In this document: piece after piece, positions 19,742 through 38,685 of the stretch
Position numbering within the stretch: position 1 is the stretch's first letter
How the letters are laid out: every line of letters starts with the position of its first letter
Origin: a virus
DNA length: 38,685 nucleotides
IMG/VR virus record: IMGVR_UViG_3300008267_000128
Coordinates: 1 to 38,685 of that record
Strand: one strand, 5' to 3'
Translations under genes and position numbers: made by a program
The notes under the pieces: generated by a model
The model's database searches: none
Told to the model about the DNA's origin: nothing
The model's input: only the letters and a program-made list of their open reading frames with translations

Positions 19742-20218
19742 TTAATTACTGCTGCTGGAGTTGTTGTGCAGATCATGCGCCTGCTTGCTGGCAGAGCAGC
19801 ACACAGGGCAATCTGTGCAGTCCGTTGCAGTACCTTCAGCAGTAGTTGCAGCTGTAGCAGTACTAAGTTCACCGCGCTCACTTGACAACCCCAACACCCG
19901 CTCAGACGCCGCGAGGCTCCCAACCCCAAAACCTGGAAAATCAAGAGGAGGGTACGTCAACTCAGCCTCGTGTGGCCGGTGCATCTGCTCCAATGTGTTG
20001 CCTCTGCGACGATTGTGGGAAATTCCGACCGGAGTACACAGGAGTAATGAGTGCGGATTTGAAGAAATTGCCTCCGCAGTCACCTGTTGGGGAGTAGTTT
20101 GAGCCGATTGCCCACCTTGCAGTAGCCCCTCAGCCAGTCCAATCACCCTTCCCGTACTGTAACCATCCGCGTAATACTGCGCACACAGTGCTTTCAACTC
20201 TTCCTGCAGTTTACTCAC
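19742..20218 (-). CDS. Hypothetical protein (158 aa) between terminase subunits
   Basis: The N-terminal 38 residues look like a true protein (MSKLQEELKALCAQYYADGY, then a Gly/Leu helix), and the start overlaps the small terminase gene by eight bases. The remainder is low-complexity, with Cys-rich (TDCTDCPVCC) and Ser/Asn-rich ends; residues about 54-66 come from copy 6 of the 38-bp element. The opposite strand also has an open frame here with a CCLCDDCGKF motif, so the true coding strand of the distal half is uncertain. No function assigned. Confidence 0.5.
   Translation of the reverse strand: MSKLQEELKALCAQYYADGYSTGRVIGLAEGLLQGGQSAQTTPQQVTAEAISSNPHSLLLCTPVGISHNRRRGNTLEQMHRPHEAELTYPPLDFPGFGVGSLAASERVLGLSSERGELSTATAATTAEGTATDCTDCPVCCSASKQAHDLHNNSSSSN
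20022..20059. repeat. 38-bp bipartite element, copy 6 (diverged right arm)
   Basis: Left arm ATTCCGACCGGAGTAC, spacer ACAGGA, right arm GTAATGAGTGCGGATT. The left arm is intact, the right arm has lost the CGRYCG core. It lies inside the 158-aa gene. Confidence 0.75.
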
Positions 20219-21032
20219 CTTGCACCTCCCGAATCACTGCTCCAGAAGTGGAAAGATCACCGAATTCTTCCGAACTCGCAGCGGTAATTGTTTGAGCCGA
20301 TTCCCCAGTAGCCCCTAAGCCCTCACCAACAGCTCCTCCTGTTGCATACTGCGCGGCCCAGTCCTTCGCACCAAGCCCAGGAGCAGGCATGTGAACGATG
20401 AATTGCTGTGCCACAGGTGCCTTTGCCACTCCCATGCCCATCGCTTTGCTGCCTGCACTGAACACTGCAAGAGCCGCGTCAATCGACACTTTGTCACTCT
20501 CCAGCCGCTCCTCCAGAATCTCCAGTGAACGAGAAACCATCCCCTTCAAGCGATCAGTAATCGCCTCCATCACAATTGGGGAAATCAACGCGGCCTGCTT
20601 CTCCGCGAGTTTCGCCTGAAAAGCATCTGAACTCATGATCTTGTGCAACCACTGGCGATGATACCCAGTTGCAGCAGCAAGAGCCGTTGTAGTCATTCCA
20701 GGATTCATAAGAAGCTGCTCAATTATGACCATGTGGGCTTGCAGAAACCCTCTGCTCTTGTCAGAGGTAAGTTGACGATTCATCTCTGAGCGCTTTGCCT
20801 TTATATTCACCTGCTCATCTTCCCAGTACTTTCTCTCTGGTTCGGAAATCCCAAAAGCAGCCTCCAGATCAACCACTGCATCTGCAACAGTTGGGTGGTC
20901 AATTGGGAGAATCTTCCGAATTGGGGACAATTGCTCCCTCCCTGTCAAGTTCTCATTAAGCAGCGTAATCGTAGCCGCCCCAAGCCCTTCCGTCCCTACT
21001 ATCTGCACCCCTTCGTGTTTCCCGCTGTCCAT
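20211..21032 (-). CDS. Terminase small subunit (putative)
   Basis: A 273-residue protein with a helix-turn-helix-like segment at about residues 112-135 (GMTTTALAAATGYHRQWLHK), followed by a helical oligomerisation region (LKGMVSRSLEILEERLESD). That layout of N-terminal DNA-binding and central helical domain is typical of phage small terminases, which recognise pac/cos and regulate the motor. It is the first gene of the virion operon and lies upstream of the large terminase. GAGGGA lies a few bases before the ATG. The family identity is inferred from layout rather than a signature. Confidence 0.7.
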   Translation of the reverse strand: MDSGKHEGVQIVGTEGLGAATITLLNENLTGREQLSPIRKILPIDHPTVADAVVDLEAAFGISEPERKYWEDEQVNIKAKRSEMNRQLTSDKSRGFLQAHMVIIEQLLMNPGMTTTALAAATGYHRQWLHKIMSSDAFQAKLAEKQAALISPIVMEAITDRLKGMVSRSLEILEERLESDKVSIDAALAVFSAGSKAMGMGVAKAPVAQQFIVHMPAPGLGAKDWAAQYATGGAVGEGLGATGESAQTITAASSEEFGDLSTSGAVIREVQGE

Positions 21033-21123
21033 AATTCCCTCTCTGTTGAAGTAAGTTGATGGGTAGAAGGTACAAAAGTTACCAGATCAAGTCAATGAGG
21101 TGCCTGATAAGTTAGGGATTTGA

Positions 21124-21161
21124 AATCCGGGCGGAATACTCTGGAGTAATAGGGGCGGAAT
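21124..21161. repeat. 38-bp bipartite element, copy 7
   Basis: Left arm AATCCGGGCGGAATAC, spacer TCTGGA, right arm GTAATAGGGGCGGAAT. It lies about 90 bases upstream of the small terminase start. Confidence 0.85.
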
Positions 21162-21312
21162 TGAGAAACACCCCCCCCGTCAGGGAGTTATAGTGTGGAA
21201 TAGTGAGTCGCTGCGGAGGTGGAAATTTGGGACGATGCGTGAGAGGCTGTAATACGAGTATACCCGCCAATCAGCGACCCCCCCATCGAACTAAGCCACC
21301 CCCCATCATCCC

Positions 21313-21422
21313 TGGCATGCTTCTTGCTATAGCTGGAGGTGGCACGATTCTTGCCCAGGGCATGGAGTAGTGGTGGCTGGCACGATCCTTGCATGTTCTC
21401 GTGAGCTGGCATGGTTTTTGCT
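21313..21422 (+). promoter_or_regulatory. Array of four sigma-54-type (-24/-12) motifs, or iterons
   Basis: Four plus-strand 16-mers fit TGGCAYG-N4-TTGC: TGGCATGCTTCTTGCT (21313-21328), TGGCACGATTCTTGCC (21340-21355), TGGCACGATCCTTGCA (21378-21393) and TGGCATGGTTTTTGCT (21407-21422). Each keeps GG and GC exactly 10 bases apart, as RpoN promoters require, and the third is a perfect consensus. Start-to-start spacing is 27, 38 and 29 bases. They could instead be binding iterons of a phage initiator or repressor. Confidence 0.55.
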
Positions 21423-21668
21423 ACGTGCGCGCGCCTGAATATCTATATAGTTAGGTACAAATGATGGGGAATTGTGGTGCATGTGCAGGAACGGTGTAAC
21501 TTTTCCCCCATACAGCCTACTCCAGAGCATGTCTCAAATTATTAATTGTGGCCGCTGGGGTTTTGAGCAGGGCATGCGGCGGTATGGAGAGGCGCGGAGG
21601 TGGGGTAGGGGATTGTGTTGCGGGGAAGCGGCGGGTGAAAATAAATGAAAAATAATTGAAAAAGGGGG

Positions 21669-21697
21669 TTGTAATCCGGTCGGAATTGGATTATAGT
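21669..21697 (+). promoter_or_regulatory. Early rightward promoter with half-element in its spacer
   Basis: TTGTAA (21669-21674), 17-base spacer, TATAGT (21692-21697). The -35 box and spacer contain GTAATCCGGTCGGAATT (21671-21687), a single arm of the 38-bp element with its CGGTCG core. It is well placed to drive the early plus-strand genes. Confidence 0.65.
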
Positions 21698-21743
21698 AGA
21701 GTCATTGGTAGGGCAGCGTAGGTTAATTACTAGGGGATTGAAA

Positions 21744-21812
21744 ATGATTGCATGCTTGGTTATTACGGTAGGGATTGAGATAGTTCTGTACTTTCGTTTG
21801 AAGTTGGCGTAA
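21744..21812 (+). CDS. Possible 22-residue hydrophobic micropeptide
   Basis: An ATG seven bases after AGGGG opens a 22-codon frame ending TAA. The peptide starts MIACLVITVGIEIVLYF and ends in RLKLA: one transmembrane-length hydrophobic stretch with a positive C-terminus. It lies just downstream of the early promoter and just before a leader hairpin, so it could be a small membrane peptide or a leader peptide. Too short to be certain. Confidence 0.35.
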   Translation: MIACLVITVGIEIVLYFRLKLA

Positions 21813-21822
21813 AATCTCACGT

Positions 21823-21848
21823 ATAGCCAATTCTCATCAGTTGGCTAT
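21823..21848 (+). other. 5'-leader hairpin before the first early gene
   Basis: ATAGCCAA (21823-21830), 10-base loop, TTGGCTAT (21841-21848): a perfect 8-bp stem. A second small hairpin, GAGCAA..TTGCTC, follows at 21851-21864. Both lie between the early promoter and the ribosome site of the gene at 21889. Confidence 0.6.
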
Positions 21849-21888: not shown

Positions 21889-22407
21889 ATGATCGCAACA
21901 TCTACACGTATCGCAGCTGTAACAACAGACGTATTCACAACTACGCTTACACTTAATTTTTCCAATGGGAAAGAGTTGGTAATTGATACTACAAAATTGT
22001 CACCGGAAATTCTGTTACAGGCCACAATGCATGGGCTCAAACAGAAATTAGTCGATGCTGCCGCAATTGGTCGGGATATGGTAACGGGCAAAACCGCAAC
22101 GATTGAGGATAAATTTAACGCCGTGCATGCCGTCTATACGCGTATCACGGCGGCTGATGGCACGTGGAATGCTAATCGCGAGGGGGTAGAGAAAACCCAA
22201 GGGGGAATGTTTGTCCGTGCAATGATGGAGTTGACGAAAAAGGATAAGGCTACAATCGACGCGCAAATTGCTACACTGAGCAAAGAACAGATTGCCGCAT
22301 TGAAGAAGAATCCACGCATTGTGGACATCATGCAGAGGTTAGAGCGTGAAAAGTTAGCCGCGAGCGATACAAGTGATGCATTGCTTGACTCATTGTTAAA
22401 CGGTTAA
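21889..22407 (+). CDS. Early phage protein (172 aa), paralogue of the 23468 gene
   Basis: A helical protein with a small N-terminal beta part (TTLTLNFSNGKELVIDTTKL), a central DGTWNANREG motif and a C-terminal region KNPRIVDIMQRLEREK. These match, in the same order, VRLDFVNGQTRTFYI, NGDWTAKRE and NNPKIAPIVAELEA in the protein at 23468-24073, so the two are paralogues. The C-terminus SDALLDSLLNG is also shared with two other early proteins. The frame extends upstream to 21841, but the ATG at 21889 follows the AAAAGAGGCTC ribosome site and is chosen. Function unknown; possibly a host- or replication-interacting early protein. Confidence 0.8.
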   Translation: MIATSTRIAAVTTDVFTTTLTLNFSNGKELVIDTTKLSPEILLQATMHGLKQKLVDAAAIGRDMVTGKTATIEDKFNAVHAVYTRITAADGTWNANREGVEKTQGGMFVRAMMELTKKDKATIDAQIATLSKEQIAALKKNPRIVDIMQRLEREKLAASDTSDALLDSLLNG

Positions 22408-23467: not shown

Positions 23468-24073
23468 ATGGCAACTGCACCGAAAAAAGAAGTCGAACTG
23501 AACATGGTAACAATGACAGATGGCCGTGTGGTCGAATTCGCAGGTAAGCGTAAACTGTTGAAGTGTTCCTTCACAGATGACAAAGGCGTTGGTGTTCGTT
23601 TGGATTTCGTAAATGGCCAGACACGTACGTTTTACATCCCTGAACCACTGTTGCACAAATTCGCGGCACACGGCGCCGAGCAGAAGTTAGGCGATGAAAC
23701 AGCTGGTGTGGAAGATCCAGATGACATGGTTATGGCAATTGATGACCTGATTGACCGCCTCTACAACGGCGATTGGACAGCAAAGCGTGAAGCCAGTGCG
23801 ATGGCAGGTGCGAGTATCCTGGCAAAAGCACTGTGCCAATCCAGCGGTAAGACATTGGATGCAGTACGCGCGTTCCTAGCTACGAAGTCACAAGCTGAGA
23901 AAGTCGCAATGCGCAACAATCCGAAGATCGCGCCGATCGTCGCCGAATTGGAAGCCATCAAGAACAAGAACAAGAAGCCAGCGAAAGAAGTTGACACTGA
24001 TTCCTTGTTGGATGCCTTGGCAAATGGTGACAATACCATCACATCTACTGGCCCTGTCGACACGGCAGAATAA
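23468..24073 (+). CDS. Early phage protein (201 aa), paralogue of the 21889 gene
   Basis: It has the same layout as the 172-aa protein: beta N-terminus with VRLDFVNG, HGAEQKL near residue 75, YNGDWTAKRE, then a helical region ending MRNNPKIAPIVAELEA, and a C-terminal SLLDALANG. The Lys-rich stretch KNKNKKPAKE precedes the tail. It has its own promoter and a terminator array, suggesting strong separate expression. The W-x-x-(K/N)RE and NP(K/R)I motifs recur in related phage proteins of unknown function. It may bind DNA or a host factor; not proven. Confidence 0.8.
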   Translation: MATAPKKEVELNMVTMTDGRVVEFAGKRKLLKCSFTDDKGVGVRLDFVNGQTRTFYIPEPLLHKFAAHGAEQKLGDETAGVEDPDDMVMAIDDLIDRLYNGDWTAKREASAMAGASILAKALCQSSGKTLDAVRAFLATKSQAEKVAMRNNPKIAPIVAELEAIKNKNKKPAKEVDTDSLLDALANGDNTITSTGPVDTAE

Positions 24074-34007: not shown

Positions 34008-35396
34008 ATGCAGCAACTCATTCTCCTAACAGACATCACAATTCCCGCTGACCGCCAACGTAAAGAATTCGATGCTGATTTCATTGCGGAACTCTCCGAA
34101 GGGATCAATCGGCAAGGCCTTCTCCATGCGCCAGTAGTGCGTGAAACGGAAATCGCCCCAGGTGTATTTGGCTTATCCCTAGTAGCAGGGGAAACTCGCC
34201 TCAAGGCAATCGAAATGCTCTGGATGACAGGGGGCACTCTGCGATACAACAACGTTGACATTGCTGATGGTTTCGTCCCTTACGTCACTCTCGGGCAGCT
34301 CACCCCTCTCGAAGCAGAGGAAGCTGAACTCGAAGAAAACATGAAGCGGAAAGACCTTACATGGCAGGAATCAGCTTCTGCAATGCAACGCCTTCACTCC
34401 CTACGTCAGAAGCAAGCCATTGCACAAGGACGTATCCACACAGTAGCTGACACCGCACTCGAAACGAAAGGACGCTCAGATGGCTCATTTCAAAACAACG
34501 TTCGCAAGGAACTCATTGTCGCTGCCCACCTCCATAACCCAGAAGTGGCTAAAGCAAAGAATACTGAAGAGGCGTTTAAAATCCTCAAGCGGCAGGAAAC
34601 AACGCAGCAAAACATTGCGTTGGCTGCGACTGTTGGACTTACGTACAATTCATCAGTACATACAGCCCTCAATGTCAACTGCCTGTCGTGGATGGCGGAG
34701 CAGATCGGTTTGCAGTTTGACGTTATCCTTACAGACCCGCCGTATGGAATGGGAGCACAGGATTTTGGAGATGGCGGAGGTAAGCAGTCTAATTCCGAAC
34801 ATCACTACGATGACTCTATTGAAGCCTGGCGCGAACTCATGGCCCATTGGTGCCAAGAAGCCTACCGCCTCGCAAAGCCCCAAGCCCACGCCTACGTTTT
34901 CTGCGACCAAGCCAACTTCCTGGAACTCAAAACCATGATGCAGTCCGCTGGTTGGTACGTCTTCCGCACCATGCTTATCGCCCACAAGCCAAACTCAGGC
35001 CGAGTCCCTCTCCCAACAATGGGGCCACGTCGCTGCTATGAAACAATCCTCTATGCGATCAAAGGAAACAAAACTGTCAACACCATCGCCCCTGATGTCA
35101 TCTCAACAACAGCTGACTCTAATCTCACACATGGCGCGCAGAAACCTGTTGCCCTCTACGTCGATTTGCTCAAGCGCTCAACTCGCGCCGGAGATTCAGT
35201 ACTTGACTGTTTTAGCGGTTCTGGCACTATCTTCCCCGCTTGCCAAGAACTCAAGCTCAAGGCTACCGGATTAGAACTTAACCCTGAATACTTCTCAATG
35301 GGATACAAACGCCTCAAAGACTTGGAAAATGCACCTGCACCTCTCGATGGCGATGCCCTTGGCGCGGAAGTCATCAACATGTTCAAAAAGGCATAA
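34008..35396 (+). CDS. ParB-like nuclease/CTPase domain fused to DNA adenine methyltransferase
   Basis: Residues about 1-170 are ParB/Srx-like: ITIPADRQRKEFDADFIAEL, INRQGLLHAPVV, the LVAGETRLKAIEML motif (GERR-box analogue) and ELEENMKRKDLTW. The second half is a beta-class amino-methyltransferase: DPPY (D243-Y246) first, then FSGSG (from F402) near the end, the order of beta-class N6-adenine or N4-cytosine enzymes. Such fusions modify phage DNA against host restriction and may bind specific sites through the ParB part. It has its own promoter, and the leader GAAAGCCTATATGC is shared with the 29572 gene. The methylated sequence is unknown. Confidence 0.92.
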   Translation: MQQLILLTDITIPADRQRKEFDADFIAELSEGINRQGLLHAPVVRETEIAPGVFGLSLVAGETRLKAIEMLWMTGGTLRYNNVDIADGFVPYVTLGQLTPLEAEEAELEENMKRKDLTWQESASAMQRLHSLRQKQAIAQGRIHTVADTALETKGRSDGSFQNNVRKELIVAAHLHNPEVAKAKNTEEAFKILKRQETTQQNIALAATVGLTYNSSVHTALNVNCLSWMAEQIGLQFDVILTDPPYGMGAQDFGDGGGKQSNSEHHYDDSIEAWRELMAHWCQEAYRLAKPQAHAYVFCDQANFLELKTMMQSAGWYVFRTMLIAHKPNSGRVPLPTMGPRRCYETILYAIKGNKTVNTIAPDVISTTADSNLTHGAQKPVALYVDLLKRSTRAGDSVLDCFSGSGTIFPACQELKLKATGLELNPEYFSMGYKRLKDLENAPAPLDGDALGAEVINMFKKA

Positions 35397-38244: not shown

Positions 38245-38685
38245 TTACGTATGGATCAAATACCCATTCCAAGCCGCTGTCACATTCTCATTATTATCTG
38301 AAACATTAAGCAGTATCAAATCAAAATCAGTGCCTTCCTGCAGATTAAATGGGGGACTCCCAGGAAACAATATAGGCTGTCCACTCGTGTTCCCAAGTTG
38401 TAATGGAATATTCACTACACCATCCAAAGGTCTTATCCAAGGAGCCATTTGAGCATATTGGTTCGATAACCCAGTGGGGCTTAGTACATCCAAAAGCAAG
38501 TCAGTCAGAACAAACGTATGCCCTTTTTCCACGGTGTAAGCAGCTTGTTGGGAATTTCCCTTTCCTGCAGGAATCATCATCCTGATAGTATTTGGAGCTG
38601 CCACATCCTCAATATGGATAATCCCTGCGTTAACTCCAGTAGTATTCCCACTCCCCAAAGCTGAGGCTGATCCAGTGTTTAATCT
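38245..38685 (-). CDS. Virion structural protein, C-terminal part (same gene as 1-450)
   Basis: Reading leftward, this is the distal part of the 258-residue protein that begins at 450. The first 38 codons (38685-38572) repeat bases 114-1. The unique part has PAGKGNSQQAAYTVEKGHTF, a segment typical of its family, then VLTDLLLDVLSPTG and a C-terminal LLNVSDNNENVTAAWNGYL. An ATG-like start at 38658 is internal and not the true start. It is followed by the operon terminator. Confidence 0.8.
   Translation of the reverse strand, partial: RLNTGSASALGSGNTTGVNAGIIHIEDVAAPNTIRMMIPAGKGNSQQAAYTVEKGHTFVLTDLLLDVLSPTGLSNQYAQMAPWIRPLDGVVNIPLQLGNTSGQPILFPGSPPFNLQEGTDFDLILLNVSDNNENVTAAWNGYLIHT
38572..38685. 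repeat. Terminal direct repeat, right copy
   Basis: Identical to 1-114; see the left copy. Confidence 0.95.

Follow-up and report, generated by a model that had tools for sequence, protein, structure and literature searches.

Early transcription of phages is usually ascribed to the housekeeping sigma factor. For example, A1, A2, and A3 of phage T7 are tandem early sigma-70 promoters. The promoters glnAp1 and glnAp2 are dual sigma-70/sigma-54 promoters of one operon, and iterons are short direct repeats in the control region of replication origins. In this study, we believed, with a probability of about one half as judged from the sequence, that four sites in the divergent control region of a viral genome are recognition sites of the host RpoN polymerase, which would give the early genes a second, conditional start.

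The window is the whole stretch of DNA that was analysed, a viral record of 38,685 bases with leftward structural genes and rightward replication genes. Its 114-base ends are identical (Table 1), which makes it likely that the record is a full genome with overlapping termini; the database lists no completeness for it. An 808-base gap separates the leftward ORF from the rightward ORF, and the array of four sites sits inside it. The first leftward gene has a homologue (36%) in the relative L201. Two early genes of the window, one of them the first rightward gene, encode related proteins (31% in alignment) with no PHROG match at E 0.001, and their family has 46 loci in viral contigs. The control region is flanked by the repeat TTG(A/T)AATCCGG(G/T)CGGAAT, which may be an operator because its right copy overlaps the -35 box and the spacer of the sigma-70-like promoter. 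The window also encodes a DNA methyltransferase. Rfam gave no match between positions 20900 and 22000. Upstream of the array no dyad was recognised, only C-runs, which likewise precede the arrays of the relatives L201, L173, and L489.

Table 1. Positions of the features in the window
Feature	Position	Strand	Remarks
Identical ends	1-114 and 38572-38685
First leftward gene	20211-21032	-	Upstream of the large terminase operon, in the place of a small terminase; no family match
Control region	21033-21840
Repeat, left copy	21114-21137
Two C-runs	21274-21308	+	Just 5' of the array; compared by eye, aligned with L489
Sigma-54-type site 1	21313-21327	+	TGGCATG-cttc-TTGC; exact; matrix score 20.7; predicted +1 at about 21339 if a promoter
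Sigma-54-type site 2	21340-21354	+	TGGCACG-attc-TTGC; exact; matrix score 16.4; weakest flanks
Sigma-54-type site 3	21378-21392	+	CTGGCACGATCCTTGCA; perfect YTGGCACG-N4-TTGCW; matrix score 20.5
Sigma-54-type site 4 (last copy)	21407-21421	+	TGGCATG-gttt-TTGC; matrix score 16.8; predicted +1 at about 21433
Alternating pyrimidine-purine tract	21422-21434	+	TACGTGCGCGCGC; 13-base run, joined to site 4 as the composite element
Repeat, right copy	21663-21686
Sigma-70-like promoter	21669-21697	+	TTGTAA-N17-TATAGT; 9/12; between the array and the first rightward gene
First rightward (early-side) gene	21889-22407	+	ORF start possible at 21841
Gene of the related early protein	23468-24073
DNA methyltransferase gene	34008-35396		ParB N-terminal-like part

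The pattern TGGCAYGNNNNTTGC has exactly four matches in the window, all on the + strand, which agrees with the four tandem TGGCAYG-N4-TTGC motifs claimed by the initial annotation. The distance between GG and GC is 10 bases in all four, and the third copy is the perfect RpoN consensus that had been reported among them. The copies start 27, 38, and 29 bases apart. The Y before TGG and the W after TTGC are present in three copies, and site 2 has G and C at these positions, respectively. Such an array had also been called very unlikely by chance, and the simulations bore this out: shuffled windows held 0.05 exact sites on average with a maximum of 1 among 100 shuffles, and two sites within 60 bases on one strand occurred in none of 400 first-order Markov windows. 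Between 21033 and 21900, no further copy with one or two mismatches was found on the + strand, and the - strand held only two echoes with three mismatches, of copies 1 and 2; there are no inverted copies in the window.

The published sigma-54 consensus is mrNrYTGGCACG-N4-TTGCWNNw, as quoted in the available part of PMC2725144. The RpoN matrix scan proposed by the initial annotation was carried out with 29 ChIP-supported intergenic sigma-54 sites of Salmonella (available part of PMC3844500). On both strands of the whole window, the four sites were the four best matches, followed by a match scoring 14.7. All four scores lie within the range of the 29 training sites (15.9 to 23.0), and simulated windows held 0.27 sites scoring at least 16.4. 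Among the matches listed, which gave 305 distinct viral array copies in 120 contigs, the base preceding TGG was Y in 90% and the base following TTGC was W in 91%; m, r, and r at -5, -4, and -2 were present in 64%, 66%, and 67%, respectively. Because positions that the search pattern did not force follow the published consensus, they were counted for the sigma-54 reading. Copies with one mismatch near arrays deviate mostly at a position that is also variable in sigma-54 sites: among 49 such copies, 30 had a changed last G of TGGCAYG (to A in 28), whereas GG was altered in 3 and GC in 2.

A comparison of GG/GC with N4 in relatives had been set beforehand, and it showed that the core was kept and that N4 and spacing were free. 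The closest relative, L489 (64% across the early protein), has five copies spaced by 27, 28, 38, and 28 bases, and in the four copies aligned with the window, counted by eye, 9 of 16 N4 positions and 1 of 40 positions of the fixed core were changed. L201 (TerL 69%, portal 43%) and L173 carry arrays at the corresponding position, in front of homologues of the window's first rightward gene; the spacings of L201 are 54, 41, and 25, and those of L173 are likewise unlike the window's. The location in front of this early gene is thus retained among the relatives with sites, and N4, the Y position, and the spacings differ, which is the behaviour of sigma-54 sites and not of iterons. The iterons that the initial annotation had offered as an alternative are disfavoured, because the whole unit is not conserved when N4 and spacing are free in L489, L201, and L173.

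The 46 loci of the early-gene family were used for two scans. Of the 43 loci with at least 500 nt upstream, 13 had a copy with no more than one mismatch within 1,200 bases, and 6 of these had two or more. The composite (site plus TACGYG, up to three mismatches) was sought in 45 family loci, L506 and L522 being left out because they have almost no upstream DNA; it was present in nine, the window included, all with no more than one mismatch, and on the opposite strand in none. The distinct relatives with the composite are seven, namely L489, L490, L201, L497, L173, L524, and L526 (L495 is the L201 contig, L502 is the L173 contig, and L498 bears the L502 array). Most of the family is without the composite. 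Site 4 with TACGYG behind it is conserved in relatives, and tracts of like kind occur both in relatives and in unrelated phages. Among named phages, the nearest relative, MW202489.1 (portal 42%), had no site in a full scan, and a DNA search with the window gave no match. The leftward neighbour gene and the portal, searched against viral contigs, led to no useful relative.

Tandem arrays are frequent in contigs of uncultured phages and almost absent from bacterial chromosomes. The two-copy pattern (gap 9 to 39) occurred in at least 120 viral contig stretches and the reversed pattern in 3 of the full collection. The three-copy pattern was found in at least 119 viral contig stretches. Among 84,980 bacterial and archaeal species, the contigs yielded 12 such stretches; inspection by eye showed near-identical tandem units in 9 of them, and free spacers and flanks in the other 3. 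RpoN (PF04552) was present in all three bins with real three-copy arrays versus 4 of 14 control genomes, a comparison in which contamination of the bins by phage contigs is possible. Phage use of such sites had been described as rare. This stands for the cultured relatives first tested, 17 named phages picked through proteins of the array contigs or the window, among which there were no arrays and one phage with a single site; it does not stand for viral contigs. Helical phasing of the spacings was considered and rejected: spacings peak at 24 to 29 bases (62 of 187 after thinning), none fall at 20 to 23, and there is no clean period.

The TACG behind a copy depends on its position in the array: it follows 18 of 270 copies in last position, compared with 3 of 415 in the middle and 3 of 269 in first position. 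The pattern of a site plus TACGYG occurs in at least 119 viral stretches, and in 107 thinned composites among the matches listed about ten following bases alternate between pyrimidine and purine, which the pattern does not force. In the reverse test, the search was made with TTGCTACGCGYGCGC only, the -24 half being omitted. TGGCAY[GA] then stood exactly four bases upstream in 22 of 78 new non-redundant stretches and with one mismatch in 10 more, and shifted registers gave 0 or 1 of 89. This indicates that both halves form one unit with the spacing of a sigma-54 site. When TACG was not required, few last copies were followed by a pyrimidine-purine run of at least 10 bases (3 of 227, versus 0 of 591 other copies), and the composite was therefore treated as an element of its own that ends some arrays. 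Among the loci found with the composite pattern, single sites are commoner than arrays: 75 of 112 have no other exact copy within 250 bases. The composite was absent from 398 Pseudomonadota genomes, in which about one was expected by chance according to our estimate; the result therefore says no more than that the element is not in use in chromosomes. A LexA-like CTGT-N8-ACAG lies 30 to 37 bases 5' of the composite in 5 of 151 cases (L297, L315, L358, L436, and L451), and 0.7 such dyads were expected within the 120 bases searched on each side of the 151 composites. No report of sigma-54 arrays in phages or of the composite was found in the literature searched, which leaves out most subscription papers.

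The composite is also present in cultured phages. The Vibrio phages River4 (L300) and Thalassa (Demerecviridae, V. harveyi) carry it at two places each, near both record ends, and in River4 it lies upstream of the A2, A1, and dmp genes. It was found in the Pseudomonas phages PollyC and SeaP2, where it is directed against the flanking genes, and in NCVTCBPA170, PAK_P3, and GP100. In PAK_P3 (NC_022970.1), the composite, whose site TGGCATGctcaTTGC is at 50946-50960, lies 69 bases before the annotated putative promoter_06 and falls inside gp74-gp112, which are early transcribed according to the available part of PMC4933390, where the RNA dataset GSE76513 is named. A nearby - strand site differs between PAK_P3 and NCVTCBPA170 only at Y, G/A, and N4, and the T5-like copy of IW18 has decayed to TGGCATGatttATGC. 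The composite was not found in phiR2-01, Salva, PAK_P4, and PaP1, in which up to three mismatches gave scattered matches only. A 38-base query matched 62 of 50,697 phage records (Vibrio 51, Pseudomonas 7, Shewanella 2, and others 2), matches that are partly short and partly a single homologous family. In the T5-like early region of River4 (L464, 2284-2950), a DnaA-box-like TTATCCACA (as TGTGGATAA) and a CTGT/ACAG-like dyad adjoin two sites. In PAK_P3 50571-50645 (L485, 3126-3200) and also in NCVTCBPA170, short direct repeats surround GGTACTCGACAG at the start of the composite's intergenic region. We give even odds to the view that the composite is a cis-element specific to phages and widespread among them, in which a sigma-54-type -24/-12 site stands at a fixed distance from TACGYG and an alternating tract, and that it belongs to the early control regions of virulent phages that are not related to one another. 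These would include the T5-like Vibrio phages (in their terminal repeats), the Nankokuvirus PAK_P3, the lineage of the window, and many uncultured phages. It would use the host RpoN polymerase in a way unlike chromosomes, and its multiplication into arrays would be lineage-specific.

A doubtful alternative is that the sites serve another host or phage protein with an RpoN-like motif, for example, a replication initiator or a DNA-entry or packaging factor, the tract and the nearby AT-rich DNA being part of an origin. Palindromic site pairs would suit such a factor. Copies with one mismatch around arrays numbered 49 on the same strand and 59 on the opposite strand, compared with 1 to 6 in four displaced same-strand controls, so inverted copies are common around arrays, and exact inverted copies facing each other 3 to 7 bases apart recur. 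In three contigs (L145, L151, and L171, from G032, G034, and G043), + and - sites alternate with a period of about 43 to 50 bases, TTGC and GCAA facing each other 3 to 5 bases apart with N4 not complementary. The coupling to a tract that chromosomes do not use, the mild excess of DnaA boxes near arrays (0.25 versus 0.08 per kb), and the composite within terminal repeats of the Vibrio T5-like phages also favour another factor; however, the variation is that of sigma-54 sites, the irregular spacing and free N4 are unlike iterons, and the phages keep one motif and share no obvious initiator, which fits a conserved host factor. No initiator family was matched among the flanking genes of the window. 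Beside the arrays, no notable shared protein family was found beyond terminase families, and none of 50 array contigs encodes RpoN, which fits a host-encoded binder.

Gene calls for the study of orientation were home-made with codon scores, and the coding share was 65%. A first home-made caller had placed 48 of 88 arrays inside ORFs; because it takes any long ORF, the codon-score caller was preferred, and 5 of 88 arrays then lay in genes. With it, 83 of the 88 array clusters were intergenic, and the downstream gene was co-oriented in 47 and opposed in 19. For composites, 92 of 102 were intergenic, with the downstream gene co-oriented in 66 and opposed in 8. Within 200 nt of composites, sigma-70 matches of at least 10/12 occurred downstream in 19 of 123, upstream in none, and on the opposite strand in 2; for arrays without the composite condition, the downstream count was 8 of 66 versus 3, 5, and 4, a slight excess. 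The match in the window is no rarer in shuffles, since shuffles of the region average 1.7, and L201 has a perfect 12/12 sigma-70 promoter downstream of its array. With a sigma-70-like promoter nearer the gene and the perfect one in L201, exclusive dependence of early transcription on RpoN is unlikely.

We propose that the four sites work as follows. In the divergent control region, they face the early operon. A closed complex of RpoN polymerase would form on them and would fire once an enhancer-binding protein of the host becomes active, so that a conditional RpoN start would supplement the sigma-70 promoter nearer the gene. With several copies, occupancy may be higher. Conservation is greatest for the last copy and its pyrimidine-purine tract, which are also the likeliest functional part, and the other copies may be lineage-specific additions. 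The benefit would be expected in stressed or starved hosts. The activator domain PF00158 was absent from the window and from the nine named phages searched, and gave one weak match in the 50 array contigs; no NtrC sites were found near the 88 arrays. As the array phages lack RpoN and, with this one weak exception, the activator, host proteins must supply both.

Several features speak against a promoter. Counted against it were the missing activator and enhancer site, the composite in only 9 of 45 family loci, the weak sigma-70 excess for arrays alone, and the lack of a site in MW202489.1. Moreover, two polymerases would not fit simultaneously on copies 24 to 29 bases apart, and the alternating C-G tract sits where a sigma-54 promoter should melt. 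Together with the inverted copies and the orientation in PollyC, this makes another role with the same factor possible. The sites might bind host sigma-54 or its holoenzyme without firing, either as an RpoN decoy or as parked closed complexes, acting as an insulator or a roadblock 5' of the sigma-70 early promoter. Tight tandem packing and inverted copies are irrelevant to binding yet matter for promoters, and the missing activator gene in the window and the nine named phages also suits binding alone. Sigma-54 can bind without core polymerase (available part of PMC2725144), and most E. coli sites looked transcriptionally inactive (available part of PMC4591121). We nevertheless judged this unlikely: a decoy needs no orientation bias, and composites point toward the downstream gene; moreover, single sites prevail among composite loci, and titration of a sigma factor is beyond a lone site. 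It is very improbable that the array is a functionless product of neutral tandem duplication. In 42 of 220 distinct arrays, every copy has the same N4, which plain repeats would show too; however, the window copies share the core only, L489 keeps the core and changes the rest, and reversed arrays are scarce.

Sigma-54 promoters are already known, and the phage arrays and the composite are apparently new to the literature searched. Should phages regularly use host RpoN as a second point of entry, infection could be linked to signals of nitrogen, membrane stress, or quorum, a link relevant to phages of slow-growing aquatic bacteria and to therapy candidates such as PAK_P3. The composite is a simple sequence tag, and the cultured phages with laboratory hosts (Vibrio harveyi and Pseudomonas) allow tests.

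The locus resembles glnAp1/glnAp2 in having a sigma-54 site upstream of a sigma-70 promoter, but on the phage side no NtrC-type enhancer was found and the function is putative. Similar to T7 A1-A2-A3, several starts for the host polymerase would precede the early genes of a virulent phage; the boxes of the window are of the sigma-54 type instead. Iterons are likewise short direct repeats in a control region, whereas N4 and the spacings of the window are not conserved. The early region of PAK_P3 (NC_022970.1; available part of PMC4933390) also has the composite in an early control region, upstream of a sigma-70-type promoter; it has one + site and one inverted degenerate site, in contrast to four tandem sites in the window, and neither the part of the record covered nor that part of the paper annotates the site as sigma-54. 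The bacterial RpoN -24/-12 promoters (Salmonella, available part of PMC3844500) have the same core and the same mrNrY and W flanks, and are also intergenic and gene-directed. The phage elements differ from them in their tandem arrays, in their inverted copies, and in the TACGYG with alternating tract that none of the 398 Pseudomonadota genomes carries.
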